From Lodderomyces elongisporus (lineage: Eukaryota; Ascomycota; Pichiomycetes; Serinales; Debaryomycetaceae): a stretch of DNA of 64,000 nucleotides. Position numbers and translations under genes: made by a program. The notes under the pieces were generated by a model, which was not told the origin of the DNA, searched no databases, and worked only from the letters and a program-made list of their open reading frames with translations. This document shows positions 11,617 to 46,685 of this stretch, one piece after another. Every line of letters starts with the position of its first letter. The stretch's first letter is position 1. The DNA lies in contig NC_083676.1 in the NCBI RefSeq assembly GCF_030384665.1, positions 744,001 to 808,000 of the forward strand, given 5' to 3'.

Positions 11617-12037
11617 GTAGCTTGTGTCATACAAGAGTGTAGAGAAAGACGAGAGCAGGGTTGTCGCATAGCACAGTCACAAGTGACAAGTGTACGACTG
11701 CTGAGCATCAATTTGAGCTAGTAGCTCACCGATACCAGCGGTTTGAGTTCGTGACTTGATAGGCTATATTCCAATTAAGTGTAATTGTCAATTTTTGCAC
11801 CTAAAAAGGTCTCAATGCTCATAAGTTAAGAGAGTAAATTGTCTCATACAAAGTCACTAGTAAGGAGAATCGTGAGAGTATACACTCTGCACGTTCACCT
11901 AGTGATTTGTGTTCAATGTAGTTGACCGTCTAAATTCTATATTTTATCGATGTTTCTATATAATAGTGATAAGTTTACTTTACCACTTCTCTTTCCTATT
12001 TATATTAACTCATCTTGTTTGAAGTTTCAAAATCCCC
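11617..12037. other. Intergenic region between RPT6 and the accessory block
   Basis: This is unique sequence with RPT6 3' flank on the left. I see no gene, RNA gene or strong repeat. It ends at the left copy of the 78-bp direct repeat. Confidence 0.5.
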
Positions 12038-12114
12038 ATGTCGTGCAATATTTTTCAAATATTCACTAAATGGAAGCGAGGGCACAGAGCGTCCAGTGTG
12101 TGTCGCACTGTGAC
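12038..12114. repeat. Left copy of block-flanking direct repeat
   Basis: About 78 bp beginning ATGTCGTGCAATATTTTTC recurs at 46607-46685 in the same orientation with roughly 90% identity (a handful of substitutions and a 2-bp indel). It does not occur between the array units, where an unrelated segment of about 46 bp (e.g. 16238-16283) joins the same neighbouring sequences. The two copies thus bracket the entire ten-gene block. Confidence 0.85.
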
Positions 12115-13605
12115 ACTGAGTGCGAAATAGAAGAATGGTTCAATTACAAATAGCAGAGTGTATACAAAAACAGAAAGGTGTGTTAATATTAGAAAGAAAA
12201 GTGCATATATTAGTAGCAAAACTCACTGAGTCCCTCACCATGATGTATTCCTGAAAACGAGTGAAAGCTGTATATGTTAAACGAGTGTAGATGCAGGTGC
12301 AATGGGAGATACCAAAAGTGTGTGCGTGCCAGTGACGGATAAGATAAGTAGTAGCAGGGCCCTTTGTGGTGTTTGAACACGGGCACACTTTTTGGTGAGC
12401 TCTCCTTCTTGGGGATCATGGCCGGGTTTGTGATATAGTTGGCCATGGAGCAGCAGCAGCAATATTAGGAACAGCAATAGCAGGAACAGCATCAGCATCA
12501 GCAACACCACCAGAAATAACACCAGTAAAATTTTTGACAACTTTGAAGCGCATGCTTTGAGTTTGGTCGACACTGGATAGCACACACTATGCCAAATATG
12601 ATTTCTATAATTTCTATAATTTCTATAATTTCTATAATTTCTATGATTTCTATGATTTCTATAATTTCTATAATTTCTATAATTTCTATAATTTCTATAA
12701 TTTCTATGATTTCTATAATTTCTATAATTTCTATAATTTCTATAATTTCTATAATTTCTATAATTTCTATAATTTCTATAATTTCTATAATTTCTATGAC
12801 TTCTATGATTTCTATGACTTCTATGATTTCTATGATTTCTATGATTTCTATGATTTCTATGATTTCTATGATTTCTATGATTTCTATGATTTCTATGATT
12901 TCTATGATTTCTATGATTTCTATGATTTCTATGATTTCTATGATTTCTATGATTTCTATGATTTCTATGATTTCTATGATTTCTATGATTTCTATGATTT
13001 CTATGATTTCTATGATTTCTATGATTTCTATGATTTCTATGATTTCTATGATTTCTATGATTTCTATGATGAATATTAATAGTAGTGGTGGTGGTAGCAG
13101 TAGTAGTAGTGGTAGTAAAGCTATTCCACCACGAGCAAACAATGATTATTATGTAGCAAAATTAAACCCCGAGAGCTGATTCCGCAAGCTCTTCTTCTGC
13201 ACCATCTGAAACAACTTGCACGGTGACTTATACAACTCAACCTGTGATTCTATGATCCCGCTGTGCCTTGTTGATACCCCTAGTGCATATGCGTCCTCCA
13301 CATTTTTCGTCCCCCGTACAAGATCATACGAAAAAGGCGCCATTTTGTCGCAGGATCTGCCAAGTTCAGAATAAATGTGTGAGTCAGCAGCTACACTAGT
13401 GCAATGTTGTGGTAGGCTATGGGAAACGGTAGCAGAGGTCGGTGGGCTCCCCCTGCTTTGGGATCATGGTTGGGTTTGTGATATAGTCATCCGTGAAGCA
13501 GCAACAGAGGTAACATCAGAAATAGCTTTAGGAACAGCATCAGGATCAATAAGATGAATAGCATCTGGAATAGCATCAGGATCAAGGTGTCTTTTAACTT
13601 CGGTC
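12115..13605. repeat. Diverged downstream spacer of the first gene of the block
   Basis: This corresponds to the spacer segment found 3' of each array gene (e.g. 16284-17254) but is diverged and longer. Shared landmarks: GAAATAGAAGAATGGTTC near 12124, the CACACTA segment near 12588, and 13254-13526, which differs from 16898-17169 at only about four positions. Extra material: unrelated sequence at 12180-12390, a second degenerate copy (12394-12465) of the GGGATCATGG/GTGATATAGT segment found at 13441-13510, and the 9-bp minisatellite listed separately. No convincing gene is present. Short minus-strand frames exist but are broken relative to the array version, by a one-base C insertion near 13452 and a stop near 13149. 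Confidence 0.75.
12599..13070. repeat. 9-bp minisatellite (TTTCTATAA / TTTCTATGA), about 52 copies
   Basis: Units of TTTCTATAA dominate on the left and TTTCTATGA on the right, with two TTCTATGAC variants near 12797 and 12815. The array copies carry only a short AT-rich segment (ATAATAAATATGATAAATATG) in the same place, so the expansion is private to this spacer. As 9 is a multiple of 3 it yields long artefactual reading frames on both strands (ISM/ISI and IIE repeats). Confidence 0.95.
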
Positions 13606-14333
13606 TTAATCCCTTTTTTTTTCGTGTTTTTTTTTTCTTTTTTTTCTTTTTTTTCGTTTTTTTGGTTTTTTTTGTTTTTCTGGTTTTTTTCGTTTTTTAT
13701 TTTTAGCATTAATTAAGCTTTGTCCAAGTTCTGCAATTCGCAGAGCCTTGGATATATTCAAAAAGAGTTTAAAAACCTTTTTGAAACTCGCTTTAATGCT
13801 ATTTAGGAAGCAAGTGAGGCTGGTACTTAGGGGTGGTGTCGTGATTTCAAAGTTTTCTGGATGTAGTTCCCCCTCGATAACCTCAATGTGTTGATCTAAA
13901 CTTTCTAGCAACCATGAAGCATACTCTTCAGGTGTTCTGACCTTTTCTTTGCCAAACCTGAAGAGAGTCTTAATCCTGCCCTCTCCCTTATAAATTCGGT
14001 GGTGGGCGTCAAACCAAACTTGGATTTTTGGTCGAATTTTCTCATTAAAGACAATTCCTATAACAAGCTTGTAGTTTGTTTTCTTTTGAGCTACAAGATG
14101 TTTTGTTTGTTGTGAAAGCTTTAAGAGTAGATTCTCCCTCTCCTCGGCAAGCATTGGAATTCCGATAGTGCCCATTATACTATCTTGGTCAATACAGTAT
14201 ATGTGTTGCCACGACGTGCGGGAACAATGCGCAGTAGACAAAGCTTCATTGATATAGCAAGTGTTTCGTGTAGAAATGAAATCACTTATGTAGTTAGCAT
14301 CATTGGTGTTGTTGGTGTTGTGGGTGTTGTTGG

Positions 14334-14379
<46 letters not shown>

Positions 14380-15279
14380 GGTGTTGTTGGTGTTGTTGGT
14401 GTTGTTGGTGTTGTTGGTGTTGGTGTTGTTGGTGTTGTTGTTGGTGTTGTTGGTGTTGGTGTTGTTGGTGTTGTTGGTGTTGTTGGTGTTGTTGGTGTTG
14501 TTAGCGTTGTTGGTGTTGTTAGCGTTGTTGGTGTTGTTGGTGTTGTTAGCGTTGTTTGTGTTGTTGGTGTTGTTGGTGTTGTTAGCGTTGTTAGCGTTGT
14601 TTGTGTTGTTTGTGTTGTTTGTGTAATTGGTGTTGTTTGTGTAACTAGTGTTGTTTGTGTAATTAGCGCTGTTTGTGTAGTTAGCGCTGTTTGTGTCTTG
14701 TTCCGAAGGGTACTCCCTATCAGCCTTGTTGTCAAGAACAGGGCTTATAGTATAGTACCTGTCCTCATCATAGACCTTCATACTAAAAAGATGAAGATAT
14801 GGAGGCAAAACTAAATCTTCTTCCCAGAGAGTAGTTGAATTTGCAACTTCACTTTCAATTTCTTCAAAGTGTTCCTTTGAAACTCTGTAGATGAGATACT
14901 TTTTATCAGCAGATGTAAATGCAGACTCACCAATTCTAACCACAGAATGTTGCTTCGAAACAAACGATTGTATAAAATCGGTGTCGTTTACTTGCTGCAA
15001 CCATTTCATCCATTGGAACATCTTTGGGTTGAACGATTTGAATTTTGTCCTGAACCCCTGGAACAGCAAGGACACTTTGCAAACATCACCTCTTTTGCAC
15101 GGTCTTTTCTTACCGGCAATTGTGGAGCGTCTAACACCTTCAGCAATGAGAAACCTTTCGGCCTCTTCTGGAATTATAGATTCTTGGACAGGCAGTTGAG
15201 ATCCAAGTTTTTTGGAAAAGTAAAAAGGTTTGGAATCCTTTGCAAAGACGTTTTGAAAACATTTATTAAAAAAGGGCAT
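13606..15279 (-). CDS. Diverged PIP-kinase-fold (pseudokinase) paralogue at the head of the array
   Basis: The product is 557 aa from the ATG at 15279. It is clearly homologous to the nine array proteins (shared EAERFL near residue 39, the LIY(K/R) strand, TPEEYA, and DQHIEVIEGELH) at roughly 35-40% identity by eye. PIPK landmarks: GESAFTSADKKYLI at 117-130 aligns with the glycine loop and first kinase strand, with Y131 where the catalytic lysine should be. A segment starting AEERENLLLKL leads into TNYKLVIGI, with Asn at the DYSLL aspartate. FDAHHRIY keeps the Asp of the IID motif. About 150 residues of Asn/Thr repeat (DNA 14290-14690) replace the DLKGS region. A Lys/Arg-rich tail of about 30 residues is encoded by a T-rich tract that is 3' non-coding in the array copies. 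Function is unknown; catalysis is unlikely. Confidence 0.8.
14290..14690 (-). repeat. Coding minisatellite, Asn/Thr repeat
   Basis: GTTGTTGGT-type 9-mers and pure TTG triplets in the plus strand encode (N-T-N) and poly-Asn repeats in the paralogue protein. Variants with AGC and TGT towards the right end give Ala- and Tyr-containing units. It sits at the same protein position as the Thr/Asn hexamer repeat of the array genes. Confidence 0.92.
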
Positions 15280-17254
15280 TGTTAATTTTTAAATTGTAGT
15301 CTTACTAAATTATTGATTGTAAAATCTGGTTAATGTTGTCGAGTAAGGCTTGGTGGTGTGTTTAATTCTGGTAAAAGAAAGAAGAAGAAGAAAAAGAAAA
15401 GTGTAAAAAAAGGTTTGAGGTCACAAGGGTTTTGTTTGTGGATATTTATACTACACCAAGTAGCCCTCTCGCCACGCCTTGTAGTTGGAGATTAACAAGT
15501 AAATTGTGTTATGCCATATACATTGTGGTTGCAAAACCCGCGAGGAAGTGAGGGGGGAACAGAAGGGCGGAAAGTCCCTTCTGGTAGCCCAGCAGTGTGT
15601 GTGCAATTGTATGTGCTACCAAACGCGTCATAACAAAAAACCAAATGGGTGCTGCCAAATGGGTGCTGCCAAATGGGTGCTGCCAATAGTATGTGGCTGT
15701 AGCAGAAAGTGGACAACCAGAGTGGATGAATTGTGTGTTTGGATGCATGTTGGCTCAACATTACCCACAGCCTTATACATCCTGCAATGCATCCTATCTC
15801 CACAAACAATCCTCGACTCATTGCAGGTTTGACAGCAATCCGTCGAAAATTGTTTGTGTGTGTTGATTATTCCTGCGAGTCTGGTGCGAATTTACGGGAA
15901 AATTGTGGGCTCAGCTACTCCCTCCCTCTTTCCCCGCCCCATACATTTACATCATATAGGCCGGATCCCAGGTTGAGCCCTAGGTTGAACCCCAGGCTGG
16001 ATCCTATGTCAGTTCTACAAAAATGCGCCACTTCCAGAACATAGGGAGAATCTGGCTCCTATCACTGCTGCTGCCCACTGTAGTGTTTTTTTGTAAAGTT
16101 TTTTGTAAAGTACACACGCACCCGCGCGCGTCCATCTTACGTGTATATTACGTGTATCTGAGGTTAACTCGTTCACAGCAGCTCACGTGCGCGTATACAT
16201 ACACATACTCCAACCCGAGATACTCTAGTTTGCAATGACAGCGATTGCGCGAAATATACAGAACGTTCAATTTTGTAGGCTGAATGCGAAATAGAAGAAT
16301 GGTTCAATTACAAATAGCAGAGTGTTTACATAAACAGAAAAGTGTGTTAATATTAGAAAAAAAAAGTGCAAAGATTAATAGCAGGAACAGCAACACCACC
16401 AAACATAACATCAGCAACACCATCAGCAACACCACCAGACATAACATCAGCAACACCATCAGCAACACCACCAGACATAACATCAGTAACACCACCAGAC
16501 ATAACACCAGCAACACAACCAGACATAACATCAGCAACACAACCAGACATAACATCAGCAACACAACCAGCAACACCATCAGCAACGCAACCAGTGACAC
16601 AACCAGGAAAAAACACCAGGAATAACACCAAAAACATTTCTGACAAGTTTGAATGGCATAGTTTGAGTTTGGTCGACGTCGGATAGCACACACTATAATA
16701 AATATGTTGGATATAATAAATATGATAAATATGATAAATATTAGTGGTGGTAGTAGTAGTGGTGCTATTCCAACACGAGCAAACAATGATTTTGATGCAA
16801 CATTAACAAACCCCGGAAGCAGATTCCACAAGCTTTTCTTCTGCACCATCTGAAACAACTTGCACGGTGACTTACACAACCCAACCTGTGATAATATGAT
16901 CCCGCTGTGCCTTGTTGATACCCCTAGTGCATATGCATCCTCCACATTTTTCGTCCCCCGTACAAGATCATACGACAAAGGCGCCATTTTGTCGCAGGAT
17001 CTGCCAAGTTCAGAATAAATGTGTGAGTCGGCAGCTACACTAGTGCAATGTTGTGGTAGGCTATGGGAAACGGTAGCAGAGGTCGGTGGGCTCCCCTGCT
17101 TTGGGATCATGGTTGGGTTTGTGATATAGTCATCCGTGAAGCAGCAACAGAGGTAACATCAGAAATAGCACCAGTGACAGTAACGTGCTTTTTTTTTGTC
17201 CGTCTGTTTTTGTTTTTTTTTTTTTTTTTTTGTTTTTTGTTTTTTTCCCTTTTA
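15280..17254. promoter_or_regulatory. Spacer 0: promoter of the paralogue plus downstream region of copy 1
   Basis: The part next to the paralogue start (15280-15384) is unique. 15385-16237 appears identical to the array R block. It contains the 14-bp repeat CAAATGGGTGCTGC three times (15641-15684), an imperfect 12-bp repeat of AGGTTGA type within 15961-16004, a CACGTG E-box at 16184-16189, and a TTACGTGTAT pair near 16136-16156. 16238-17254 is the joint and spacer L. Spacer L has 24-bp repeats (16380-16610, unit like GCAACACCACCAGACATAAC) and a T-run of 19 near 17213-17231 just 3' of the copy 1 stop. A minus-strand open frame at 16304-17110 (268 codons, hydrophobic) exists in each unit but is not credited as a gene. 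Confidence 0.7.
15441..15450 (-). promoter_or_regulatory. TATA box of the paralogue (shared promoter)
   Basis: On the minus strand this reads TATAAATATC, about 162 bp upstream of the ATG at 15279. The same element lies about 174 bp upstream of every array gene: 18811, 22181, 25551, 28923, 32293, 35639, 39045, 42415 and 45785. All ten genes therefore appear to use one promoter sequence. No experimental support is available. Confidence 0.6.
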
Positions 17255-18637
17255 TTACTTGGTTGAGACCAGCATTAGACTTTTGATCCTCGCTTTTATG
17301 TTCTTTATGTAGCGAGTGAAGCTGGTAGTTGGGGGTAGTGTTTTGATTTTGAACTTTTCTAGATGTAGTTCCCCCTCGATAACCTCAATGTGCTGATCTA
17401 AAGTCTTAATCAACCAAGCAGCGTATTCTTCTGGTGTTTTGACATTTGCTCTGCCAAACCTAAAAAACCTTCTAAACCCCCTCTCCCTGGTGTATGTCCT
17501 GTGGTAGTCGACAATCCGAACTTGGATTCCTGGTCGACTACCCACTTTTCTCTCCACCCCAACTAGAAGCTTATAGCCTGTTTTGTTTCTGGCTATAAGA
17601 TGGGTCGTGTCCCTTTGCAATTTGTGAAGGATGTCCTCGCGTTCTTTGGTAAGTAAGGGGAAGCGGACATTGCCTGTTGGACAGCCCTGGTCAATGGGGT
17701 GGTATAATGGCCTCAGAAATGAGGACTTATGGACAACGGAGTTGGTGCAAAGTGTTGCGAAGGTGGGTCTGGGTTCGCCCATGTCACATGCTTGTTTGTT
17801 CCTGCGTGTCACGTAATTGTATGTGCGTGTGGTGTTTGTGTTTGTGTTTGTGTTTGTGTTTGTGTTTGTGTCTGTGTTTGTGTCTGTAAATGTGTATGTG
17901 TTTGAGGTATATGTGTTTTTCGGGCTTGTTTCTTGTGTGCCCAAGTAATATACCTCAGTTGCTTGGTGCTCGTATGCCGGACTTACTGCATAGATAGTTT
18001 CCTCCCCTCCAAAATTCATTTTCAAGAGTTGGAAGTGGGGAAGTATCAATGATGCCTCTTTGTAGTGGCTTCCCATTCTGGGAAGCTCTCTCCTGATGTC
18101 TTGGGAGTGTTCGTCTGAAATCTTGTAGATGAGAAATTTTCCATCTGTAGATTTGTAGGCGGTGCTGCCTATTTTTGTTATGGAGTCTTCCATGGACGCA
18201 AATGACTGTAAATAGGTGGATTCCAGGCATCCCCACAGCTTTCTTACTCTTTGAAACAGCTTTGCATGGTAGGACTCGATATTGGTTGTGTATTCTTGGT
18301 GCCTAAGAAAAACACTGAAAGTTTCGTCGTACTTCCAGGTTCTCCTGAGGCAGTCGGCAATACTTTTGTGTATTCCCTCTACAAGAAGAAACCTTTCGGC
18401 CTCTTTCTTGGTAAGCTTTTTAACTGGTGTTTCCAGCAGTGGTGCACCTGAGGGTGATTTCCCAGGTGCTTGCGAAGGTTTGAATCCCTTCGCCAAAGTT
18501 GATTTGAGGTTTTGGAAAACCTGCTTGGTTGATTGGGGTACAGGTTCTCCGGGAAGTTGAAACCGAACCTTGCGTTCGGCTGGTTTTTCCCCCTTTGACT
18601 TGGGGGAGGTGTTAAAAGCGTTTTTGAAAAATGACAT
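17255..18637 (-). CDS. PIP-kinase-fold pseudokinase, array copy 1 (460 aa)
   Basis: Residues 1-75 are basic and Pro/Ser-rich with no domain. Homology to phosphatidylinositol-phosphate kinases (Mss4/PIP5K, Fab1) then runs in order: a Y-x-x-K-x-F helix (123-140); GSTAYKSTDGKFLI (157-170), matching the family G-S-x-F-Y-x-S-x-D-x-R-F-I-I; LILPHFQLLK (197-206), like LLPKFYGLY; a segment starting TKEREDILHKLQRD (330-343) that leads into TGYKLLVGV (353-361), like xDYSLLVGI; IVDYHRTY (375-382); and TPEEYAAWL (401-409), like PxxYAxRF. Key losses: Tyr171 at the ATP-binding lysine, Gly354 at the DYSLL Asp, and no DLKGS (a Thr/Asn repeat at 241-270 instead). Asp377 of the IID motif is kept. I infer a catalytically dead PIPK relative. 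CTG codon 138 would be Ser. The allele state is T-run 19, basic hexamer number. Confidence 0.85.
   Translation of the reverse strand: MSFFKNAFNTSPKSKGEKPAERKVRFQLPGEPVPQSTKQVFQNLKSTLAKGFKPSQAPGKSPSGAPLLETPVKKLTKKEAERFLLVEGIHKSIADCLRRTWKYDETFSVFLRHQEYTTNIESYHAKLFQRVRKLWGCLESTYLQSFASMEDSITKIGSTAYKSTDGKFLIYKISDEHSQDIRRELPRMGSHYKEASLILPHFQLLKMNFGGEETIYAVSPAYEHQATEVYYLGTQETSPKNTYTSNTYTFTDTNTDTNTNTNTNTNTNTTRTYNYVTRRNKQACDMGEPRPTFATLCTNSVVHKSSFLRPLYHPIDQGCPTGNVRFPLLTKEREDILHKLQRDTTHLIARNKTGYKLLVGVERKVGSRPGIQVRIVDYHRTYTRERGFRRFFRFGRANVKTPEEYAAWLIKTLDQHIEVIEGELHLEKFKIKTLPPTTSFTRYIKNIKARIKSLMLVSTK
17832..17890 (-). repeat. Coding hexamer repeat (TTTGTG)n of copy 1
   Basis: TTTGTG units, with TCTGTG variants, encode alternating Thr/Asn in place of the PIPK DLKGS segment. 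Copies 1-4 and 6 have the same number. Copy 7 has one more, and copies 5, 8 and 9 have two more. All changes keep the frame. Confidence 0.9.
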
Positions 18638-20624
18638 TGTTTAAGATTTAATTAAGTAAACTAACTGGTAAAGTCTGACTCGTTTAAACTGTACTAAGTG
18701 AGACTTTGGTTGTGGGTTTACTTCTGGCGAAAGAAGAAGAAGAAGAAGAAGGAAAAGAAGAAAAAGAAAAGTGTAAAAAAAGGTTTGAGGTCACAAGGGT
18801 TTTGTTTGTGGATATTTATACTACACCAAGTAGCCCTCTCGCCACGCCTTGTAGTTGGAGATTAACAAGTAAATTGTGTTATGCCATATACATTGTGGTT
18901 GCAAAACCCGCGAGGAAGTGAGGGGGGAACAGAAGGGCGGAAAGTCCCTTCTGGTAGCCCAGCAGTGTGTGTGCAATTGTATGTGCTACCAAACGCGTCA
19001 TAACAAAAAACCAAATGGGTGCTGCCAAATGGGTGCTGCCAAATGGGTGCTGCCAATAGTATGTGGCTGTAGCAGAAAGTGGACAACCAGAGTGGATGAA
19101 TTGTGTGTTTGGATGCATGTTGGCTCAACATTACCCACAGCCTTATACATCCTGCAATGCATCCTATCTCCACAAACAATCCTCGACTCATTGCAGGTTT
19201 GACAGCAATCCGTCGAAAATTGTTTGTGTGTGTTGATTATTCCTGCGAGTCTGGTGCGAATTTACGGGAAAATTGTGGGCTCAGCTACTCCCTCCCTCTT
19301 TCCCCGCCCCATACATTTACATCATATAGGCCGGATCCCAGGTTGAGCCCTAGGTTGAACCCCAGGCTGGATCCTATGTCAGTTCTACAAAAATGCGCCA
19401 CTTCCAGAACATAGGGAGAATCTGGCTCCTATCACTGCTGCTGCCCACTGTAGTGTTTTTTTGTAAAGTTTTTTGTAAAGTACACACGCACCCGCGCGCG
19501 TCCATCTTACGTGTATATTACGTGTATCTGAGGTTAACTCGTTCACAGCAGCTCACGTGCGCGTATACATACACATACTCCAACCCGAGATACTCTAGTT
19601 TGCAATGACAGCGATTGCGCGAAATATACAGAACGTTCAATTTTGTAGGCTGAATGCGAAATAGAAGAATGGTTCAATTACAAATAGCAGAGTGTTTACA
19701 TAAACAGAAAAGTGTGTTAATATTAGAAAAAAAAAGTGCAAAGATTAATAGCAGGAACAGCAACACCACCAAACATAACATCAGCAACACCATCAGCAAC
19801 ACCACCAGACATAACATCAGCAACACCATCAGCAACACCACCAGACATAACATCAGTAACACCACCAGACATAACACCAGCAACACAACCAGACATAACA
19901 TCAGCAACACAACCAGACATAACATCAGCAACACAACCAGCAACACCATCAGCAACGCAACCAGTGACACAACCAGGAAAAAACACCAGGAATAACACCA
20001 AAAACATTTCTGACAAGTTTGAATGGCATAGTTTGAGTTTGGTCGACGTCGGATAGCACACACTATAATAAATATGTTGGATATAATAAATATGATAAAT
20101 ATGATAAATATTAGTGGTGGTAGTAGTAGTGGTGCTATTCCAACACGAGCAAACAATGATTTTGATGCAACATTAACAAACCCCGGAAGCAGATTCCACA
20201 AGCTTTTCTTCTGCACCATCTGAAACAACTTGCACGGTGACTTACACAACCCAACCTGTGATAATATGATCCCGCTGTGCCTTGTTGATACCCCTAGTGC
20301 ATATGCATCCTCCACATTTTTCGTCCCCCGTACAAGATCATACGACAAAGGCGCCATTTTGTCGCAGGATCTGCCAAGTTCAGAATAAATGTGTGAGTCG
20401 GCAGCTACACTAGTGCAATGTTGTGGTAGGCTATGGGAAACGGTAGCAGAGGTCGGTGGGCTCCCCTGCTTTGGGATCATGGTTGGGTTTGTGATATAGT
20501 CATCCGTGAAGCAGCAACAGAGGTAACATCAGAAATAGCACCAGTGACAGTAACGTGCTTTTTTTTTGTCCGTCTGTTTTTGTTTTTTTTTTTTTTTTTT
20601 TGTTTTTTGTTTTTTTCCCTTTTA
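18638..20624. promoter_or_regulatory. Spacer 1: promoter of copy 1, downstream region of copy 2
   Basis: This includes the copy 1 leader (18638-18754, with GAA-rich stretch 18737-18770), an R block with three 14-bp repeats (19011-19054), the joint, and the L spacer with T-run 19. It is indistinguishable from spacers 0 (right part), 2 and 3. Confidence 0.75.
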
Positions 20625-22007
20625 TTACTTGGTTGAGACCAGCATTAGACTTTTGATCCTCGCTTTTATGTTCTTTATGTAGCGAGTGAAGCTGGTAGTT
20701 GGGGGTAGTGTTTTGATTTTGAACTTTTCTAGATGTAGTTCCCCCTCGATAACCTCAATGTGCTGATCTAAAGTCTTAATCAACCAAGCAGCGTATTCTT
20801 CTGGTGTTTTGACATTTGCTCTGCCAAACCTAAAAAACCTTCTAAACCCCCTCTCCCTGGTGTATGTCCTGTGGTAGTCGACAATCCGAACTTGGATTCC
20901 TGGTCGACTACCCACTTTTCTCTCCACCCCAACTAGAAGCTTATAGCCTGTTTTGTTTCTGGCTATAAGATGGGTCGTGTCCCTTTGCAATTTGTGAAGG
21001 ATGTCCTCGCGTTCTTTGGTAAGTAAGGGGAAGCGGACATTGCCTGTTGGACAGCCCTGGTCAATGGGGTGGTATAATGGCCTCAGAAATGAGGACTTAT
21101 GGACAACGGAGTTGGTGCAAAGTGTTGCGAAGGTGGGTCTGGGTTCGCCCATGTCACATGCTTGTTTGTTCCTGCGTGTCACGTAATTGTATGTGCGTGT
21201 GGTGTTTGTGTTTGTGTTTGTGTTTGTGTTTGTGTTTGTGTCTGTGTTTGTGTCTGTAAATGTGTATGTGTTTGAGGTATATGTGTTTTTCGGGCTTGTT
21301 TCTTGTGTGCCCAAGTAATATACCTCAGTTGCTTGGTGCTCGTATGCCGGACTTACTGCATAGATAGTTTCCTCCCCTCCAAAATTCATTTTCAAGAGTT
21401 GGAAGTGGGGAAGTATCAATGATGCCTCTTTGTAGTGGCTTCCCATTCTGGGAAGCTCTCTCCTGATGTCTTGGGAGTGTTCGTCTGAAATCTTGTAGAT
21501 GAGAAATTTTCCATCTGTAGATTTGTAGGCGGTGCTGCCTATTTTTGTTATGGAGTCTTCCATGGACGCAAATGACTGTAAATAGGTGGATTCCAGGCAT
21601 CCCCACAGCTTTCTTACTCTTTGAAACAGCTTTGCATGGTAGGACTCGATATTGGTTGTGTATTCTTGGTGCCTAAGAAAAACACTGAAAGTTTCGTCGT
21701 ACTTCCAGGTTCTCCTGAGGCAGTCGGCAATACTTTTGTGTATTCCCTCTACAAGAAGAAACCTTTCGGCCTCTTTCTTGGTAAGCTTTTTAACTGGTGT
21801 TTCCAGCAGTGGTGCACCTGAGGGTGATTTCCCAGGTGCTTGCGAAGGTTTGAATCCCTTCGCCAAAGTTGATTTGAGGTTTTGGAAAACCTGCTTGGTT
21901 GATTGGGGTACAGGTTCTCCGGGAAGTTGAAACCGAACCTTGCGTTCGGCTGGTTTTTCCCCCTTTGACTTGGGGGAGGTGTTAAAAGCGTTTTTGAAAA
22001 ATGACAT
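20625..22007 (-). CDS. PIP-kinase-fold pseudokinase, array copy 2 (460 aa)
   Basis: The protein is identical to copy 1, including Tyr171 and Gly354 at the catalytic positions. The TATA element is at 22181-22190. The offset from copy 1 is exactly 3370 bp, and I see no length difference at any variable site. This suggests a very recent duplication or conversion with copies 1 and 3. Confidence 0.85.
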   Translation of the reverse strand: MSFFKNAFNTSPKSKGEKPAERKVRFQLPGEPVPQSTKQVFQNLKSTLAKGFKPSQAPGKSPSGAPLLETPVKKLTKKEAERFLLVEGIHKSIADCLRRTWKYDETFSVFLRHQEYTTNIESYHAKLFQRVRKLWGCLESTYLQSFASMEDSITKIGSTAYKSTDGKFLIYKISDEHSQDIRRELPRMGSHYKEASLILPHFQLLKMNFGGEETIYAVSPAYEHQATEVYYLGTQETSPKNTYTSNTYTFTDTNTDTNTNTNTNTNTNTTRTYNYVTRRNKQACDMGEPRPTFATLCTNSVVHKSSFLRPLYHPIDQGCPTGNVRFPLLTKEREDILHKLQRDTTHLIARNKTGYKLLVGVERKVGSRPGIQVRIVDYHRTYTRERGFRRFFRFGRANVKTPEEYAAWLIKTLDQHIEVIEGELHLEKFKIKTLPPTTSFTRYIKNIKARIKSLMLVSTK

Positions 22008-37482: not shown

Positions 37483-38871
37483 TTACTTGGTTGAGACCAG
37501 CATTAGACTTTTGATCCTCGCTTTTATGTTCTTTATGTAGCGAGTGAAGCTGGTAGTTGGGGGTAGTGTTTTGATTTTGAACTTTTCTAGATGTAGTTCC
37601 CCCTCGATAACCTCAATGTGCTGATCTAAAGTCTTAATCAACCAAGCAGCGTATTCTTCTGGTGTTTTGACATTTGCTCTGCCAAACCTAAAAAACCTTC
37701 TAAACCCCCTCTCCCTGGTGTATGTCCTGTGGTAGTCGACAATCCGAACTTGGATTCCTGGTCGACTACCCACTTTTCTCTCCACCCCAACTAGAAGCTT
37801 ATAGCCTGTTTTGTTTCTGGCTATAAGATGGGTCGTGTCCCTTTGCAATTTGTGAAGGATGTCCTCGCGTTCTTTGGTAAGTAAGGGGAAGCGGACATTG
37901 CCTGTTGGACAGCCCTGGTCAATGGGGTGGTATAATGGCCTCAGAAATGAGGACTTATGGACAACGGAGTTGGTGCAAAGTGTTGCGAAGGTGGGTCTGG
38001 GTTCGCCCATGTCACATGCTTGTTTGTTCCTGCGTGTCACGTAATTGTATGTGCGTGTGGTGTTTGTGTTTGTGTTTGTGTTTGTGTTTGTGTTTGTGTT
38101 TGTGTCTGTGTTTGTGTCTGTAAATGTGTATGTGTTTGAGGTATATGTGTTTTTCGGGCTTGTTTCTTGTGTGCCCAAGTAATATACCTCAGTTGCTTGG
38201 TGCTCGTATGCCGGACTTACTGCATAGATAGTTTCCTCCCCTCCAAAATTCATTTTCAAGAGTTGGAAGTGGGGAAGTATCAATGATGCCTCTTTGTAGT
38301 GGCTTCCCATTCTGGGAAGCTCTCTCCTGATGTCTTGGGAGTGTTCGTCTGAAATCTTGTAGATGAGAAATTTTCCATCTGTAGATTTGTAGGCGGTGCT
38401 GCCTATTTTTGTTATGGAGTCTTCCATGGACGCAAATGACTGTAAATAGGTGGATTCCAGGCATCCCCACAGCTTTCTTACTCTTTGAAACAGCTTTGCA
38501 TGGTAGGACTCGATATTGGTTGTGTATTCTTGGTGCCTAAGAAAAACACTGAAAGTTTCGTCGTACTTCCAGGTTCTCCTGAGGCAGTCGGCAATACTTT
38601 TGTGTATTCCCTCTACAAGAAGAAACCTTTCGGCCTCTTTCTTGGTAAGCTTTTTAACTGGTGTTTCCAGCAGTGGTGCACCTGAGGGTGATTTCCCAGG
38701 TGCTTGCGAAGGTTTGAATCCCTTCGCCAAAGTTGATTTGAGGTTTTGGAAAACCTGCTTGGTTGATTGGGGTACAGGTTCTCCGGGAAGTTGAAACCGA
38801 ACCTTGCGTTCGGCTGGTTTTTCCCCCTTTGACTTGGGGGAGGTGTTAAAAGCGTTTTTGAAAAATGACAT
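37483..38871 (-). CDS. PIP-kinase-fold pseudokinase, array copy 7 (462 aa)
   Basis: Carries one extra Thr-Asn pair (6 bp), a state found only here and intermediate between 460 and 464 aa. The rest of the protein equals copy 1. The TATA element is at 39045-39054. Confidence 0.85.
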   Translation of the reverse strand: MSFFKNAFNTSPKSKGEKPAERKVRFQLPGEPVPQSTKQVFQNLKSTLAKGFKPSQAPGKSPSGAPLLETPVKKLTKKEAERFLLVEGIHKSIADCLRRTWKYDETFSVFLRHQEYTTNIESYHAKLFQRVRKLWGCLESTYLQSFASMEDSITKIGSTAYKSTDGKFLIYKISDEHSQDIRRELPRMGSHYKEASLILPHFQLLKMNFGGEETIYAVSPAYEHQATEVYYLGTQETSPKNTYTSNTYTFTDTNTDTNTNTNTNTNTNTNTTRTYNYVTRRNKQACDMGEPRPTFATLCTNSVVHKSSFLRPLYHPIDQGCPTGNVRFPLLTKEREDILHKLQRDTTHLIARNKTGYKLLVGVERKVGSRPGIQVRIVDYHRTYTRERGFRRFFRFGRANVKTPEEYAAWLIKTLDQHIEVIEGELHLEKFKIKTLPPTTSFTRYIKNIKARIKSLMLVSTK

Positions 38872-40846
38872 TGTTTAAGATTTAATTAAGTAAACTAACT
38901 GGTAAAGTCTGACTCGTTTAAACTGTACTAAGTGAGACTTTGGTTGTGGGTTTACTTCTGGCGAAAGAAGAAGAAGAAGAAGAAGGAAAAGAAGAAAAAG
39001 AAAAGTGTAAAAAAAGGTTTGAGGTCACAAGGGTTTTGTTTGTGGATATTTATACTACACCAAGTAGCCCTCTCGCCACGCCTTGTAGTTGGAGATTAAC
39101 AAGTAAATTGTGTTATGCCATATACATTGTGGTTGCAAAACCCGCGAGGAAGTGAGGGGGGAACAGAAGGGCGGAAAGTCCCTTCTGGTAGCCCAGCAGT
39201 GTGTGTGCAATTGTATGTGCTACCAAACGCGTCATAACAAAAAACCAAATGGGTGCTGCCAAATGGGTGCTGCCAATAGTATGTGGCTGTAGCAGAAAGT
39301 GGACAACCAGAGTGGATGAATTGTGTGTTTGGATGCATGTTGGCTCAACATTACCCACAGCCTTATACATCCTGCAATGCATCCTATCTCCACAAACAAT
39401 CCTCGACTCATTGCAGGTTTGACAGCAATCCGTCGAAAATTGTTTGTGTGTGTTGATTATTCCTGCGAGTCTGGTGCGAATTTACGGGAAAATTGTGGGC
39501 TCAGCTACTCCCTCCCTCTTTCCCCGCCCCATACATTTACATCATATAGGCCGGATCCCAGGTTGAGCCCTAGGTTGAACCCCAGGCTGGATCCTATGTC
39601 AGTTCTACAAAAATGCGCCACTTCCAGAACATAGGGAGAATCTGGCTCCTATCACTGCTGCTGCCCACTGTAGTGTTTTTTTGTAAAGTTTTTTGTAAAG
39701 TACACACGCACCCGCGCGCGTCCATCTTACGTGTATATTACGTGTATCTGAGGTTAACTCGTTCACAGCAGCTCACGTGCGCGTATACATACACATACTC
39801 CAACCCGAGATACTCTAGTTTGCAATGACAGCGATTGCGCGAAATATACAGAACGTTCAATTTTGTAGGCTGAATGCGAAATAGAAGAATGGTTCAATTA
39901 CAAATAGCAGAGTGTTTACATAAACAGAAAAGTGTGTTAATATTAGAAAAAAAAAGTGCAAAGATTAATAGCAGGAACAGCAACACCACCAAACATAACA
40001 TCAGCAACACCATCAGCAACACCACCAGACATAACATCAGCAACACCATCAGCAACACCACCAGACATAACATCAGTAACACCACCAGACATAACACCAG
40101 CAACACAACCAGACATAACATCAGCAACACAACCAGACATAACATCAGCAACACAACCAGCAACACCATCAGCAACGCAACCAGTGACACAACCAGGAAA
40201 AAACACCAGGAATAACACCAAAAACATTTCTGACAAGTTTGAATGGCATAGTTTGAGTTTGGTCGACGTCGGATAGCACACACTATAATAAATATGTTGG
40301 ATATAATAAATATGATAAATATGATAAATATTAGTGGTGGTAGTAGTAGTGGTGCTATTCCAACACGAGCAAACAATGATTTTGATGCAACATTAACAAA
40401 CCCCGGAAGCAGATTCCACAAGCTTTTCTTCTGCACCATCTGAAACAACTTGCACGGTGACTTACACAACCCAACCTGTGATAATATGATCCCGCTGTGC
40501 CTTGTTGATACCCCTAGTGCATATGCATCCTCCACATTTTTCGTCCCCCGTACAAGATCATACGACAAAGGCGCCATTTTGTCGCAGGATCTGCCAAGTT
40601 CAGAATAAATGTGTGAGTCGGCAGCTACACTAGTGCAATGTTGTGGTAGGCTATGGGAAACGGTAGCAGAGGTCGGTGGGCTCCCCTGCTTTGGGATCAT
40701 GGTTGGGTTTGTGATATAGTCATCCGTGAAGCAGCAACAGAGGTAACATCAGAAATAGCACCAGTGACAGTAACGTGCTTTTTTTTTGTCCGTCTGTTTT
40801 TGTTTTTTTTTTTTTTTTTTTTTGTTTTTTGTTTTTTTCCCTTTTA
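38872..40846. promoter_or_regulatory. Spacer 7: promoter of copy 7, downstream region of copy 8
   Basis: Two 14-bp repeats (39245-39274), T-run 21. Confidence 0.75.
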
Positions 40847-42241
40847 TTACTTGGTTGAGACCAGCATTAGACTTTTGATCCTCGCTTTTATGTTCTTTAT
40901 GTAGCGAGTGAAGCTGGTAGTTGGGGGTAGTGTTTTGATTTTGAACTTTTCTAGATGTAGTTCCCCCTCGATAACCTCAATGTGCTGATCTAAAGTCTTA
41001 ATCAACCAAGCAGCGTATTCTTCTGGTGTTTTGACATTTGCTCTGCCAAACCTAAAAAACCTTCTAAACCCCCTCTCCCTGGTGTATGTCCTGTGGTAGT
41101 CGACAATCCGAACTTGGATTCCTGGTCGACTACCCACTTTTCTCTCCACCCCAACTAGAAGCTTATAGCCTGTTTTGTTTCTGGCTATAAGATGGGTCGT
41201 GTCCCTTTGCAATTTGTGAAGGATGTCCTCGCGTTCTTTGGTAAGTAAGGGGAAGCGGACATTGCCTGTTGGACAGCCCTGGTCAATGGGGTGGTATAAT
41301 GGCCTCAGAAATGAGGACTTATGGACAACGGAGTTGGTGCAAAGTGTTGCGAAGGTGGGTCTGGGTTCGCCCATGTCACATGCTTGTTTGTTCCTGCGTG
41401 TCACGTAATTGTATGTGCGTGTGGTGTTTGTGTTTGTGTTTGTGTTTGTGTTTGTGTTTGTGTTTGTGTTTGTGTCTGTGTTTGTGTCTGTAAATGTGTA
41501 TGTGTTTGAGGTATATGTGTTTTTCGGGCTTGTTTCTTGTGTGCCCAAGTAATATACCTCAGTTGCTTGGTGCTCGTATGCCGGACTTACTGCATAGATA
41601 GTTTCCTCCCCTCCAAAATTCATTTTCAAGAGTTGGAAGTGGGGAAGTATCAATGATGCCTCTTTGTAGTGGCTTCCCATTCTGGGAAGCTCTCTCCTGA
41701 TGTCTTGGGAGTGTTCGTCTGAAATCTTGTAGATGAGAAATTTTCCATCTGTAGATTTGTAGGCGGTGCTGCCTATTTTTGTTATGGAGTCTTCCATGGA
41801 CGCAAATGACTGTAAATAGGTGGATTCCAGGCATCCCCACAGCTTTCTTACTCTTTGAAACAGCTTTGCATGGTAGGACTCGATATTGGTTGTGTATTCT
41901 TGGTGCCTAAGAAAAACACTGAAAGTTTCGTCGTACTTCCAGGTTCTCCTGAGGCAGTCGGCAATACTTTTGTGTATTCCCTCTACAAGAAGAAACCTTT
42001 CGGCCTCTTTCTTGGTAAGCTTTTTAACTGGTGTTTCCAGCAGTGGTGCACCTGAGGGTGATTTCCCAGGTGCTTGCGAAGGTTTGAATCCCTTCGCCAA
42101 AGTTGATTTGAGGTTTTGGAAAACCTGCTTGGTTGATTGGGGTACAGGTTCTCCGGGAAGTTGAAACCGAACCTTGCGTTCGGCTGGTTTTTCCCCCTTT
42201 GACTTGGGGGAGGTGTTAAAAGCGTTTTTGAAAAATGACAT
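40847..42241 (-). CDS. PIP-kinase-fold pseudokinase, array copy 8 (464 aa)
   Basis: Same 464-aa state as copies 5 and 9, with two 14-bp promoter repeats, so together with its promoter it matches copy 5. The TATA element is at 42415-42424. Confidence 0.85.
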   Translation of the reverse strand: MSFFKNAFNTSPKSKGEKPAERKVRFQLPGEPVPQSTKQVFQNLKSTLAKGFKPSQAPGKSPSGAPLLETPVKKLTKKEAERFLLVEGIHKSIADCLRRTWKYDETFSVFLRHQEYTTNIESYHAKLFQRVRKLWGCLESTYLQSFASMEDSITKIGSTAYKSTDGKFLIYKISDEHSQDIRRELPRMGSHYKEASLILPHFQLLKMNFGGEETIYAVSPAYEHQATEVYYLGTQETSPKNTYTSNTYTFTDTNTDTNTNTNTNTNTNTNTNTTRTYNYVTRRNKQACDMGEPRPTFATLCTNSVVHKSSFLRPLYHPIDQGCPTGNVRFPLLTKEREDILHKLQRDTTHLIARNKTGYKLLVGVERKVGSRPGIQVRIVDYHRTYTRERGFRRFFRFGRANVKTPEEYAAWLIKTLDQHIEVIEGELHLEKFKIKTLPPTTSFTRYIKNIKARIKSLMLVSTK

Positions 42242-44216
42242 TGTTTAAGATTTAATTAAGTAAACTAACTGGTAAAGTCTGACTCGTTTAAACTGTACTA
42301 AGTGAGACTTTGGTTGTGGGTTTACTTCTGGCGAAAGAAGAAGAAGAAGAAGAAGGAAAAGAAGAAAAAGAAAAGTGTAAAAAAAGGTTTGAGGTCACAA
42401 GGGTTTTGTTTGTGGATATTTATACTACACCAAGTAGCCCTCTCGCCACGCCTTGTAGTTGGAGATTAACAAGTAAATTGTGTTATGCCATATACATTGT
42501 GGTTGCAAAACCCGCGAGGAAGTGAGGGGGGAACAGAAGGGCGGAAAGTCCCTTCTGGTAGCCCAGCAGTGTGTGTGCAATTGTATGTGCTACCAAACGC
42601 GTCATAACAAAAAACCAAATGGGTGCTGCCAAATGGGTGCTGCCAATAGTATGTGGCTGTAGCAGAAAGTGGACAACCAGAGTGGATGAATTGTGTGTTT
42701 GGATGCATGTTGGCTCAACATTACCCACAGCCTTATACATCCTGCAATGCATCCTATCTCCACAAACAATCCTCGACTCATTGCAGGTTTGACAGCAATC
42801 CGTCGAAAATTGTTTGTGTGTGTTGATTATTCCTGCGAGTCTGGTGCGAATTTACGGGAAAATTGTGGGCTCAGCTACTCCCTCCCTCTTTCCCCGCCCC
42901 ATACATTTACATCATATAGGCCGGATCCCAGGTTGAGCCCTAGGTTGAACCCCAGGCTGGATCCTATGTCAGTTCTACAAAAATGCGCCACTTCCAGAAC
43001 ATAGGGAGAATCTGGCTCCTATCACTGCTGCTGCCCACTGTAGTGTTTTTTTGTAAAGTTTTTTGTAAAGTACACACGCACCCGCGCGCGTCCATCTTAC
43101 GTGTATATTACGTGTATCTGAGGTTAACTCGTTCACAGCAGCTCACGTGCGCGTATACATACACATACTCCAACCCGAGATACTCTAGTTTGCAATGACA
43201 GCGATTGCGCGAAATATACAGAACGTTCAATTTTGTAGGCTGAATGCGAAATAGAAGAATGGTTCAATTACAAATAGCAGAGTGTTTACATAAACAGAAA
43301 AGTGTGTTAATATTAGAAAAAAAAAGTGCAAAGATTAATAGCAGGAACAGCAACACCACCAAACATAACATCAGCAACACCATCAGCAACACCACCAGAC
43401 ATAACATCAGCAACACCATCAGCAACACCACCAGACATAACATCAGTAACACCACCAGACATAACACCAGCAACACAACCAGACATAACATCAGCAACAC
43501 AACCAGACATAACATCAGCAACACAACCAGCAACACCATCAGCAACGCAACCAGTGACACAACCAGGAAAAAACACCAGGAATAACACCAAAAACATTTC
43601 TGACAAGTTTGAATGGCATAGTTTGAGTTTGGTCGACGTCGGATAGCACACACTATAATAAATATGTTGGATATAATAAATATGATAAATATGATAAATA
43701 TTAGTGGTGGTAGTAGTAGTGGTGCTATTCCAACACGAGCAAACAATGATTTTGATGCAACATTAACAAACCCCGGAAGCAGATTCCACAAGCTTTTCTT
43801 CTGCACCATCTGAAACAACTTGCACGGTGACTTACACAACCCAACCTGTGATAATATGATCCCGCTGTGCCTTGTTGATACCCCTAGTGCATATGCATCC
43901 TCCACATTTTTCGTCCCCCGTACAAGATCATACGACAAAGGCGCCATTTTGTCGCAGGATCTGCCAAGTTCAGAATAAATGTGTGAGTCGGCAGCTACAC
44001 TAGTGCAATGTTGTGGTAGGCTATGGGAAACGGTAGCAGAGGTCGGTGGGCTCCCCTGCTTTGGGATCATGGTTGGGTTTGTGATATAGTCATCCGTGAA
44101 GCAGCAACAGAGGTAACATCAGAAATAGCACCAGTGACAGTAACGTGCTTTTTTTTTGTCCGTCTGTTTTTGTTTTTTTTTTTTTTTTTTTTTGTTTTTT
44201 GTTTTTTTCCCTTTTA
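42242..44216. promoter_or_regulatory. Spacer 8: promoter of copy 8, downstream region of copy 9
   Basis: Two 14-bp repeats (42615-42644), T-run 21. Confidence 0.75.
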
Positions 44217-45611
44217 TTACTTGGTTGAGACCAGCATTAGACTTTTGATCCTCGCTTTTATGTTCTTTATGTAGCGAGTGAAGCTGGTAGTTGGGGGTAG
44301 TGTTTTGATTTTGAACTTTTCTAGATGTAGTTCCCCCTCGATAACCTCAATGTGCTGATCTAAAGTCTTAATCAACCAAGCAGCGTATTCTTCTGGTGTT
44401 TTGACATTTGCTCTGCCAAACCTAAAAAACCTTCTAAACCCCCTCTCCCTGGTGTATGTCCTGTGGTAGTCGACAATCCGAACTTGGATTCCTGGTCGAC
44501 TACCCACTTTTCTCTCCACCCCAACTAGAAGCTTATAGCCTGTTTTGTTTCTGGCTATAAGATGGGTCGTGTCCCTTTGCAATTTGTGAAGGATGTCCTC
44601 GCGTTCTTTGGTAAGTAAGGGGAAGCGGACATTGCCTGTTGGACAGCCCTGGTCAATGGGGTGGTATAATGGCCTCAGAAATGAGGACTTATGGACAACG
44701 GAGTTGGTGCAAAGTGTTGCGAAGGTGGGTCTGGGTTCGCCCATGTCACATGCTTGTTTGTTCCTGCGTGTCACGTAATTGTATGTGCGTGTGGTGTTTG
44801 TGTTTGTGTTTGTGTTTGTGTTTGTGTTTGTGTTTGTGTTTGTGTCTGTGTTTGTGTCTGTAAATGTGTATGTGTTTGAGGTATATGTGTTTTTCGGGCT
44901 TGTTTCTTGTGTGCCCAAGTAATATACCTCAGTTGCTTGGTGCTCGTATGCCGGACTTACTGCATAGATAGTTTCCTCCCCTCCAAAATTCATTTTCAAG
45001 AGTTGGAAGTGGGGAAGTATCAATGATGCCTCTTTGTAGTGGCTTCCCATTCTGGGAAGCTCTCTCCTGATGTCTTGGGAGTGTTCGTCTGAAATCTTGT
45101 AGATGAGAAATTTTCCATCTGTAGATTTGTAGGCGGTGCTGCCTATTTTTGTTATGGAGTCTTCCATGGACGCAAATGACTGTAAATAGGTGGATTCCAG
45201 GCATCCCCACAGCTTTCTTACTCTTTGAAACAGCTTTGCATGGTAGGACTCGATATTGGTTGTGTATTCTTGGTGCCTAAGAAAAACACTGAAAGTTTCG
45301 TCGTACTTCCAGGTTCTCCTGAGGCAGTCGGCAATACTTTTGTGTATTCCCTCTACAAGAAGAAACCTTTCGGCCTCTTTCTTGGTAAGCTTTTTAACTG
45401 GTGTTTCCAGCAGTGGTGCACCTGAGGGTGATTTCCCAGGTGCTTGCGAAGGTTTGAATCCCTTCGCCAAAGTTGATTTGAGGTTTTGGAAAACCTGCTT
45501 GGTTGATTGGGGTACAGGTTCTCCGGGAAGTTGAAACCGAACCTTGCGTTCGGCTGGTTTTTCCCCCTTTGACTTGGGGGAGGTGTTAAAAGCGTTTTTG
45601 AAAAATGACAT
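44217..45611 (-). CDS. PIP-kinase-fold pseudokinase, array copy 9 (464 aa)
   Basis: Last full gene of the array, transcribed like the others towards RPT6, so its promoter is the right-hand end of the block. It has the 464-aa state and five 14-bp promoter repeats. The TATA element is at 45785-45794. The homologous upstream sequence stops at 46609, so this copy lacks the further upstream joint/L sequence that precedes the other promoters. Confidence 0.85.
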   Translation of the reverse strand: MSFFKNAFNTSPKSKGEKPAERKVRFQLPGEPVPQSTKQVFQNLKSTLAKGFKPSQAPGKSPSGAPLLETPVKKLTKKEAERFLLVEGIHKSIADCLRRTWKYDETFSVFLRHQEYTTNIESYHAKLFQRVRKLWGCLESTYLQSFASMEDSITKIGSTAYKSTDGKFLIYKISDEHSQDIRRELPRMGSHYKEASLILPHFQLLKMNFGGEETIYAVSPAYEHQATEVYYLGTQETSPKNTYTSNTYTFTDTNTDTNTNTNTNTNTNTNTNTTRTYNYVTRRNKQACDMGEPRPTFATLCTNSVVHKSSFLRPLYHPIDQGCPTGNVRFPLLTKEREDILHKLQRDTTHLIARNKTGYKLLVGVERKVGSRPGIQVRIVDYHRTYTRERGFRRFFRFGRANVKTPEEYAAWLIKTLDQHIEVIEGELHLEKFKIKTLPPTTSFTRYIKNIKARIKSLMLVSTK

Positions 45612-46609
45612 TGTTTAAGATTTAATTAAGTAAACTAACTGGTAAAGTCTGACTCGTTTAAACTGTACTAAGTGAGACTTTGGTTGTGGGTTTACTTCTG
45701 GCGAAAGAAGAAGAAGAAGAAGAAGGAAAAGAAGAAAAAGAAAAGTGTAAAAAAAGGTTTGAGGTCACAAGGGTTTTGTTTGTGGATATTTATACTACAC
45801 CAAGTAGCCCTCTCGCCACGCCTTGTAGTTGGAGATTAACAAGTAAATTGTGTTATGCCATATACATTGTGGTTGCAAAACCCGCGAGGAAGTGAGGGGG
45901 GAACAGAAGGGCGGAAAGTCCCTTCTGGTAGCCCAGCAGTGTGTGTGCAATTGTATGTGCTACCAAACGCGTCATAACAAAAAACCAAATGGGTGCTGCC
46001 AAATGGGTGCTGCCAAATGGGTGCTGCCAAATGGGTGCTGCCAAATGGGTGCTGCCAATAGTATGTGGCTGTAGCAGAAAGTGGACAACCAGAGTGGATG
46101 AATTGTGTGTTTGGATGCATGTTGGCTCAACATTACCCACAGCCTTATACATCCTGCAATGCATCCTATCTCCACAAACAATCCTCGACTCATTGCAGGT
46201 TTGACAGCAATCCGTCGAAAATTGTTTGTGTGTGTTGATTATTCCTGCGAGTCTGGTGCGAATTTACGGGAAAATTGTGGGCTCAGCTACTCCCTCCCTC
46301 TTTCCCCGCCCCATACATTTACATCATATAGGCCGGATCCCAGGTTGAGCCCTAGGTTGAACCCCAGGCTGGATCCTATGTCAGTTCTACAAAAATGCGC
46401 CACTTCCAGAACATAGGGAGAATCTGGCTCCTATCACTGCTGCTGCCCACTGTAGTGTTTTTTTGTAAAGTTTTTTGTAAAGTACACACGCACCCGCGCG
46501 CGTCCATCTTACGTGTATATTACGTGTATCTGAGGTTAACTCGTTCACAGCAGCTCACGTGCGCGTATACATACACATACTCCAACCCGAGATACTCTAG
46601 TTTGCAATG
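45612..46609. promoter_or_regulatory. Promoter of copy 9 and right end of the array
   Basis: Leader plus R block with five 14-bp repeats (45985-46056). Homology to the array ends after TTTGCAATG at 46609, at the same base where the joint begins in the other units (16237). Confidence 0.8.
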
Positions 46610-46685
46610 TCGTGCAATATTTTCCAGATATTCACTAAATGGAAACGAGGGCACAGAGCGTTCAGTGTGTGGGTCGCACTATGAC
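46607..46685. repeat. Right copy of block-flanking direct repeat
   Basis: Matches 12038-12114 in the same orientation at about 90% identity. It directly abuts the end of the R block, overlapping it by the shared ATG. After 46685 the sequence becomes unique A-rich flank. Confidence 0.85.

Follow-up and report, generated by a model that had tools for sequence, protein, structure and literature searches.

The wtf killer meiotic drivers of Schizosaccharomyces pombe form a large gene family, often located beside solo long terminal repeats (LTRs), with a conserved upstream region, length-variable internal repeats and non-allelic gene conversion (PMC11497594). In hemiascomycetes, a survey of nine genomes reported a largest tandem array of 16 genes, with 76.5% of the arrays made of two (PMC2822764), and for an older assembly of Lodderomyces elongisporus a 2010 analysis gave 93 tandem clusters with a mean of 2.2 genes (PMC2880306). 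Here we analyze a 64,000-nucleotide stretch of this yeast, C4:744001-808000 of the PacBio assembly of strain NRRL YB-4239 (the window), which carries a tandem array of genes probably derived from phosphatidylinositol-phosphate kinases (PIPKs). It is one of nine arrays of a family that has so far been encountered in L. elongisporus alone. Positions without a chromosome are those of the window, and CUG is read as serine (table 12), as by the authors of the assembly (PMC10586162).

We are moderately confident that these genes belong to a family of cassettes spread and homogenized by recombination, partly via LTRs, in a selfish or conflict-driven manner rather than through dosage amplification, and that their product is a pseudo-PIPK. 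In a cassette, a coding sequence of modular build would stand between a promoter region with a TATA box and a conserved 3' block. The proposed spread would involve three processes. First, arrays would arise by unequal crossing over. Second, coding sequences would be swapped by gene conversion and crossing over in the flanks that the types have in common. Finally, cassettes would move between chromosomes by ectopic recombination, dispersed LTRs providing homology for some of the jumps.

Tandem Amplification and Homogenization on C4

Tandem amplification is directly observed in the window. Ten open reading frames (ORFs) stand in a row on the minus strand. One, at 13606-15279, encodes 557 aa; the nine others, each of 460-464 aa, occupy 17255-45611. 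The proteins encoded by the nine (type A) differ only by 0-2 Thr-Asn pairs (five of 460 aa, one of 462 and three of 464), as the first-pass annotation of this DNA had stated, and the motif strings that it quoted are present in the protein. Homogenization is just as plain: the nine aligned coding sequences contain no substitution in 1395 columns and gaps in 12, these being length changes in simple repeats, while the eight whole units (3358-3400 bp) contain no substitution and 68 gap columns in 3412. The left-end spacer of the array has one mismatch to the reference unit.

The same annotation had described the array as one diverged plus nine near-identical copies. This description is wrong, as the tenth gene belongs to another subfamily (type C), which has its own array on C6. 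The gene is not a decayed A copy, and its type C coding sequence stands behind a type A promoter.

A Family on Seven Chromosomes

In own-genome searches, the family comprises at least ~141 genes on seven of the eight chromosomes (C2-C8), organized as nine arrays of 7-30, two pairs and three singles; no member was seen on C1. The copy counts are lower bounds tallied by hand, type E being counted through matches to its N-terminal part. Type A has 9 copies on C4 and 27 on C2; type B, 12 on C5 and 1 on C6; type C, 12 on C6 and 1 on C8 plus the tenth gene of the window; type D, 30 on C2 and 7 on C8; type E, 13 on C3, 16 on C7 and 8 on C8 (37 copies); and type F, 4 on C3 as two pairs. Five different types form arrays, and broken pieces are found at C2:2398553-2401930, C8:747369 and C8:824553-825625. 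By the sum of their approximate limits the arrays span ~0.55 Mb, so that a single gene family appears to occupy ~3.4% of a yeast genome. Array DNA was read as sequence for the whole of C4, for C2:2178001-2378000 and for single pieces of C3, C5, C6 and C8.

The assembly (GCA_030384665.1) consists of 16,086,460 bp in eight contigs built from HiFi reads longer than 20 kb, and is more than 0.6 Mb larger than the 2009 assembly (PMC10586162). These reads are shorter than the arrays, and the exact copy number depends on the assembly. This would leave room for an artefact, i.e., inflated copy number or misplaced arrays, which we nevertheless regard as very improbable: the nine arrays are of five types with units carrying differing indels, a family protein of NRRL YB-4239 (P0004) is present in another assembly, and the 0.6-Mb gain would fit arrays that had collapsed in the earlier assembly.

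No relatives outside L. elongisporus were recognized in protein searches that each scored ~8000 candidates, the weakest matches (E 0.12 to 0.52) being set aside as chance, and no description of the family was seen among the papers that searches of an open-access library listed. In two of the deposited PVL30 models, P0005 and P0017, family genes seem to be spliced into the noncoding 3' block, and a third, P0006, resembles a chimaera; these may be annotation errors.

Probable Descent from Phosphatidylinositol-Phosphate Kinases

The first-pass annotation had also called the gene PIPK-like, which stands for its homology and for the fold of its N-lobe; as regards catalysis, most of the residues concerned are lost. 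In a Pfam scan of types A to E, PIP5K (PF01504) scored 24.6 bits for type A, 18.3 for B and 17.6 for D, all below the 27-bit cut-off, and had no match in types C and E. A family profile built from five sequences of types A-D retrieved 22 sequences from the PDB with E up to 10, of which 21 are PIPKs (best 1.6e-11) and the sole other is one protein at E 0.24; the best match aligns over two collinear stretches on PI5P4K-beta. A single type A protein (P0001) searched against the PDB with E up to 1 matched only an unrelated protein, at E 0.044. Among the proteins of its own genome, the profile scored 21.8 bits for Mss4 and 15.2 for Fab1 (C2:1950754 and C1:3023779, which we take to be these two kinases), against 1.5 bits for the best of 100 shuffles and -3.4 and -4.4 for the unrelated controls RPT6 and CK1.

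Profile-profile and structural comparisons, the checks suggested at the time of the annotation, gave the same answer. The hhalign probability is 94.8% over 82 columns. The mean pLDDT of the AlphaFold2 model is 46.9, its confident part being limited to residues 72-188 and 200-222 of the N-lobe (mostly pLDDT 63-90). With this model all 50 of the best 50 Foldseek matches (of 462, E up to 10) are PIPKs, the best at E 3.6e-8. Homology of the family to PIPKs is thus supported by the profiles and by the predicted fold of the N-lobe.

Four sites bear on activity: the lysine of the IIKT strand, the DLKGS motif and the aspartates of MDYSLL and IID, to which we assign the roles they have in PIPKs. The ATP lysine is replaced in all five types that bear a PIPK domain (Y in A, B, and C, H in D, S in F), and DLKGS is absent from the sequences of types A, B, C, D, and F. 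The MDYSLL aspartate reads G, G, N, and G in A to D and is kept in F only, and the position of the metal-binding aspartate of IID reads IVD in A and B, IDD in D and IGN in F, and is shifted by one in C. Because the lysine is replaced and DLKGS is absent in all five, the proteins would be classed by sequence as pseudo-PIPKs, and the most likely product is a non-catalytic, membrane-facing binder with a PIPK fold. Two CUG codons, at residue 127 of P0011 and residue 223 of P0014, give Ser by table 12 at a site that is hydrophobic in B, C, and Mss4.

The coding sequence is modular. Its short N-terminus is basic and aromatic, it contains inserts of low complexity, and five of the six types carry the PIPK-like domain as well. 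Types B, C, and E have one N-terminal module in common, and A, D, and F another. Type E is devoid of the PIPK domain and yet as amplified as any type; in all 34 copies listed from the C3, C7 and C8 arrays, a relic of the N-lobe bears one TGA and two TAG. The type E copy read as sequence (L041:813-3140) encodes 776 aa with 39-aa repeats and a poly-Gln end.

Old Coding Sequences in Similar Flanks

Seven representatives, drawn from types A, C, D, E, and F, share 95.9-99.7% identity in the 345-bp 3' block, and the upstream region with the TATA promoter is 69-98% identical among the seven longer rows. The TATAAATA box was found in 9/9 upstream rows of types A-F that reach it, two rows of type C, on C6 and C8, being too short. 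In the coding sequences, the synonymous divergence (dS) between types is 1.82 for A-B, 1.69 for A-C and 0.88 for B-C, and is saturated for A-D. Near-identical flanks around coding sequences with dS of 0.88-1.82 argue that old gene lineages sit in young, shared flanks. This disparity makes gene conversion, array homogenization and LTR-mediated dispersal directly testable.

Exchange of a promoter between types is directly observed in the window. Compared with the local A array, the promoter of its type C gene agrees at 678/678 aligned bases (gaps not counted) and then at 84/85, while the last 105 alignment columns before the ATG match type A at 57/88 and the C6 type C copy at 95/97. This gene is one coding-sequence swap behind a type A promoter, caught directly. 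Outside low-complexity parts it has 7 and 5 nonsynonymous differences to the C6 and C8 copies, respectively.

LTRs at the Array Edges

LTR-bounded edges common to two pairs of arrays are likewise directly observed. At each limit of the C4 array, placed earlier at 12038 and 46685, lies one copy of an 80-bp direct repeat. The two copies are 91% identical and represent the 3' end of an LTR. The complete 454-bp LTR is found in at least 40 places (40 of 102 candidates scored), often paired ~2071 or 4577 bp apart, and the 5-bp target duplications are exact in both elements of its family that were checked (CTGCC and CTGTT). Among the 40 scored of 246 candidates for a 160-base query across the LTR-unit junction, full-length matches lie at four left array edges, on C4, C3 (type E), C5 (type B) and C6 (type C), those on C5 and C6 at 76% identity. 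The C3 and C4 arrays have the same junction, TGACA/CTGAG, and the C5 and C6 arrays have another in common, with a diverged LTR end lacking CA and ~26 extra bases. Among the edges read, which lie on C2-C6, LTR sequence was seen on both sides at C4 only, and elsewhere at left edges only. As CTGAG resembles the two known targets, the C3/C4 junction would be best explained by an LTR that inserted at a unit edge and then travelled with the unit.

A transposon with fixed ends and constant termini was considered and rejected because the edges differ between arrays: in cassette positions, they lie at 1 and 3328 on C4, at 561 and 329 for the type D array of C2, at 127 on the left of its type A array and at ~280 on the right of C5. 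The cassette genes run antisense to the LTR, and no reverse transcriptase of copia or Ty3 type (RVT_2 or RVT_1) was matched inside the LTR pairs C5:861786-866440, C4:674147-678801 and C1:1893328-1895475. Elsewhere in the genome, LTR ends at C5:1388263-1425364 recur with a period of ~6983 bp, in pairs 2071 bp apart, and probably mark another tandem array, ~46 kb from that of type B. An RVT_1 match of equal score in a 1529-aa open frame is found in 18 places (e.g., C1:23081-23584), probably a recently active retrotransposon.

A more specific form of selfishness, which we consider unlikely, would be a new killer or drive class built on a dead lipid-kinase fold, in which poison and antidote are split among types swapped in near-identical flanks, LTRs mediate carriage between chromosomes, and the truncated type E acts as a modifier.

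Dosage and Selection

CUP1-type arrays are a known parallel for dosage amplification. For the present array the first-pass annotation had offered either selection for high expression through dosage or recent selfish or adaptive spread. Adaptive dosage amplification, in which many copies are kept since a high level of a PIPK-like protein is useful, is unlikely in our view. It draws on the intact gene found per unit in the stretches read fully (9 on C4, 21 of type A and 30 of type D on C2, beside matching 3' blocks numbering 9, 22, with one gene cut by the end of the stretch, and 30), on the TATA promoter region common to the types, and on the ratio of nonsynonymous to synonymous rates (omega), which between types is below 1 (A-B 0.26, A-C 0.30, B-C 0.45; three of four pairs computable). 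However, the preferred-codon fraction of types A, B, C, and D is 0.34-0.42 vs 0.38-0.60 in eight neighboring genes, the 37 type E copies have no PIPK domain, five different types form the arrays, and broken copies occur on C2 and C8. Low codon preference and the amplification of a truncated type E point to little need for much kinase. Dosage selection for a kinase is therefore not supported, and of the two proposals recent selfish spread fits better.

Values of omega below 1 between types suggest that the protein does something. Within types, omega is 0.56 for A, 0.43 for B and 0.63 for D. Three pairs of type C gave 1.71, 1.22 and 0.24, each from 1-2 synonymous and 2-7 nonsynonymous differences, numbers on which positive selection is not claimed.

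Several points weigh against selfish spread through exchange and LTRs. The C-lobe is modelled without confidence, so that a PIPK fold is found for the N-lobe only. Conservation of the flanks could reflect constraint on the promoter and 3' block rather than exchange, and at ~1.7 the dS approaches saturation. The LTR link does not extend to all arrays, no LTR having been found on the right of C5 or at any of the three C2 edges read, and the pentamers around the whole C4 locus (AGGGT and GGGGT) match at 4/5 positions only. Given the diverged LTR end without CA and the ~26 extra bases, the C5 and C6 junctions may be separate events; on C3 and C4, simple insertion of an LTR into a unit at CTGAG could account for the junction, since both known targets begin with CTG. 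The codon ranges of family and neighbors overlap, and the preferred codons are those we assume for this yeast. Finally, omega below 1 means that the protein is useful to something, and an ordinary host function would fit as well.

Chromosomal Setting

On each of C2-C8, all family loci lie within one region of at most ~220 kb. More than one type is present in five of these seven regions. On C2, the type D array and the type A array that faces it enclose a 6.66-kb stretch (C2:2297021-2303680) with no ORF of 120 aa or more, a GC content of ~0.34 and a switch in AT skew near 2299.4 kb; the 5.5 kb of it that were searched are unique in the genome. The facing arrays thereby offer a candidate centromere. 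Centromeres of L. elongisporus are only predicted (PMC7263194), and Koren et al. (2010) reported, for this species, two scaffolds on which long repetitive DNA flanks the skewed DNA and two others with a single long repetitive region and no skew signal (PMC2924309). The 6 kb read next to the C4 array and the 8 kb next to that of C5 revealed no centromere core.

The clustering of loci, the C2 stretch and the repeats beside skewed DNA on those two scaffolds would be expected of structural or pericentromeric DNA, i.e., arrays kept as repeats near centromeres with their proteins incidental. This is quite unlikely: ordinary genes adjoin the C4 array on both sides and the C5 array on the right, and omega is below 1.

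Features of the Window

The features of the C4 array and its edges are collected in Table 1. Eight of the nine neighboring genes scanned against Pfam have a match (RuvB/AAA ATPase, eIF4G, proteasomal ATPase, DnaJ, M28 peptidase, RGI1, MRG and protein kinase), and one has none. The units also hold a second ORF of 268 aa (264 aa in one), which was rejected as a second gene. A gene is improbable here, since the frame runs across a 1-bp indel that differs among units of the type A array of C2, where the 3' block has 345 bases in 17 units and 346 in 5; as we read the alignment, this frame also contains stops in types C and D. No known RNA at gathering scores and no tRNA was found in the window. A perfect tandem repeat of 41.5 copies of ATAGGTGT occupies 1868-2199.

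Table 1. Position of features of the C4 array in the window.
Feature	Position	Strand	Remark
LTR, TG...CA, 454 bp, of a dispersed LTR element	11662..12115	+	3' end adjoins array; 93% to C1 copy
Left (3') array edge	12116..12218	-	LTR/unit junction TGACA/CTGAG, common to C3 type E array
Type C unit, conserved 3' block	13099..13526	-	93% to type A unit, 92% to type D
Putative type C pseudo-PIPK gene, 557 aa	13606..15279	-	Asn/Thr-rich insert
TATA box of type C gene	15443..15450	-	In promoter DNA matching local A array up to breakpoint near ATG
Type A copy 1, 460 aa	17255..18637	-	
Type A copy 2, 460 aa	20625..22007	-	
Type A copy 3, 460 aa	23995..25377	-	
Type A copy 4, 460 aa	27367..28749	-	
Type A copy 5, 464 aa	30725..32119	-	
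Type A copy 6, 460 aa	34083..35465	-	
Type A copy 7, 462 aa	37483..38871	-	
Type A copy 8, 464 aa	40847..42241	-	
345-bp 3' block	43781..44125	-	Identical letter for letter in 8/9 A units
Type A copy 9, 464 aa	44217..45611	-	
Upstream region of last A copy	45612..46606	-	Up to right array edge
TATAAATA box	45787..45794	-	183 bp upstream of ATG in 9/9 A copies
Truncated LTR 3' end, right array boundary	46607..46686	+	Followed by GGGGT; AGGGT precedes left LTR

Comparison with Known Systems

With PIPKs (PF01504), the family has in common the profile and fold of the N-lobe, a YCP..F..LR..FG-like stretch in type D, a later LL.G stretch and a TPEEYA-like end. It differs from them by the loss of the ATP lysine and of DLKGS, by an MDYSLL aspartate confined to type F and by Pfam scores that stay under the cut-off. 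The TG...CA ends, the 5-bp target duplications and the pairs ~2071 or 4577 bp apart resemble those of LTR retrotransposons with non-autonomous members; unlike such elements, the three pairs examined contain no RVT_2 or RVT_1 and the cassette genes are antisense to the LTR. As in hemiascomycete tandem arrays, the paralogues are contiguous, head-to-tail and of high identity, all of which holds on C4, but L. elongisporus has up to 30 copies in an array and nine arrays of one family.

The wtf drivers are the closest parallel, and drive is suggested for the L. elongisporus family only by analogy with them. Pfam includes a Wtf family, to which types A-E gave no match with E up to 1. Both systems combine LTRs with gene conversion, the LTR standing here at four left edges and, truncated, at the right edge of C4, and at none of four other edges read. 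If the family is selfish, a lipid-kinase fold would have given rise, independently and in a budding yeast, to conflict families similar to those of fission yeast. The two differ in their layout, as a wtf locus of the reference strain holds one gene or a tandem pair (PMC11497594) whereas the cassettes described here stand in arrays of up to 30.

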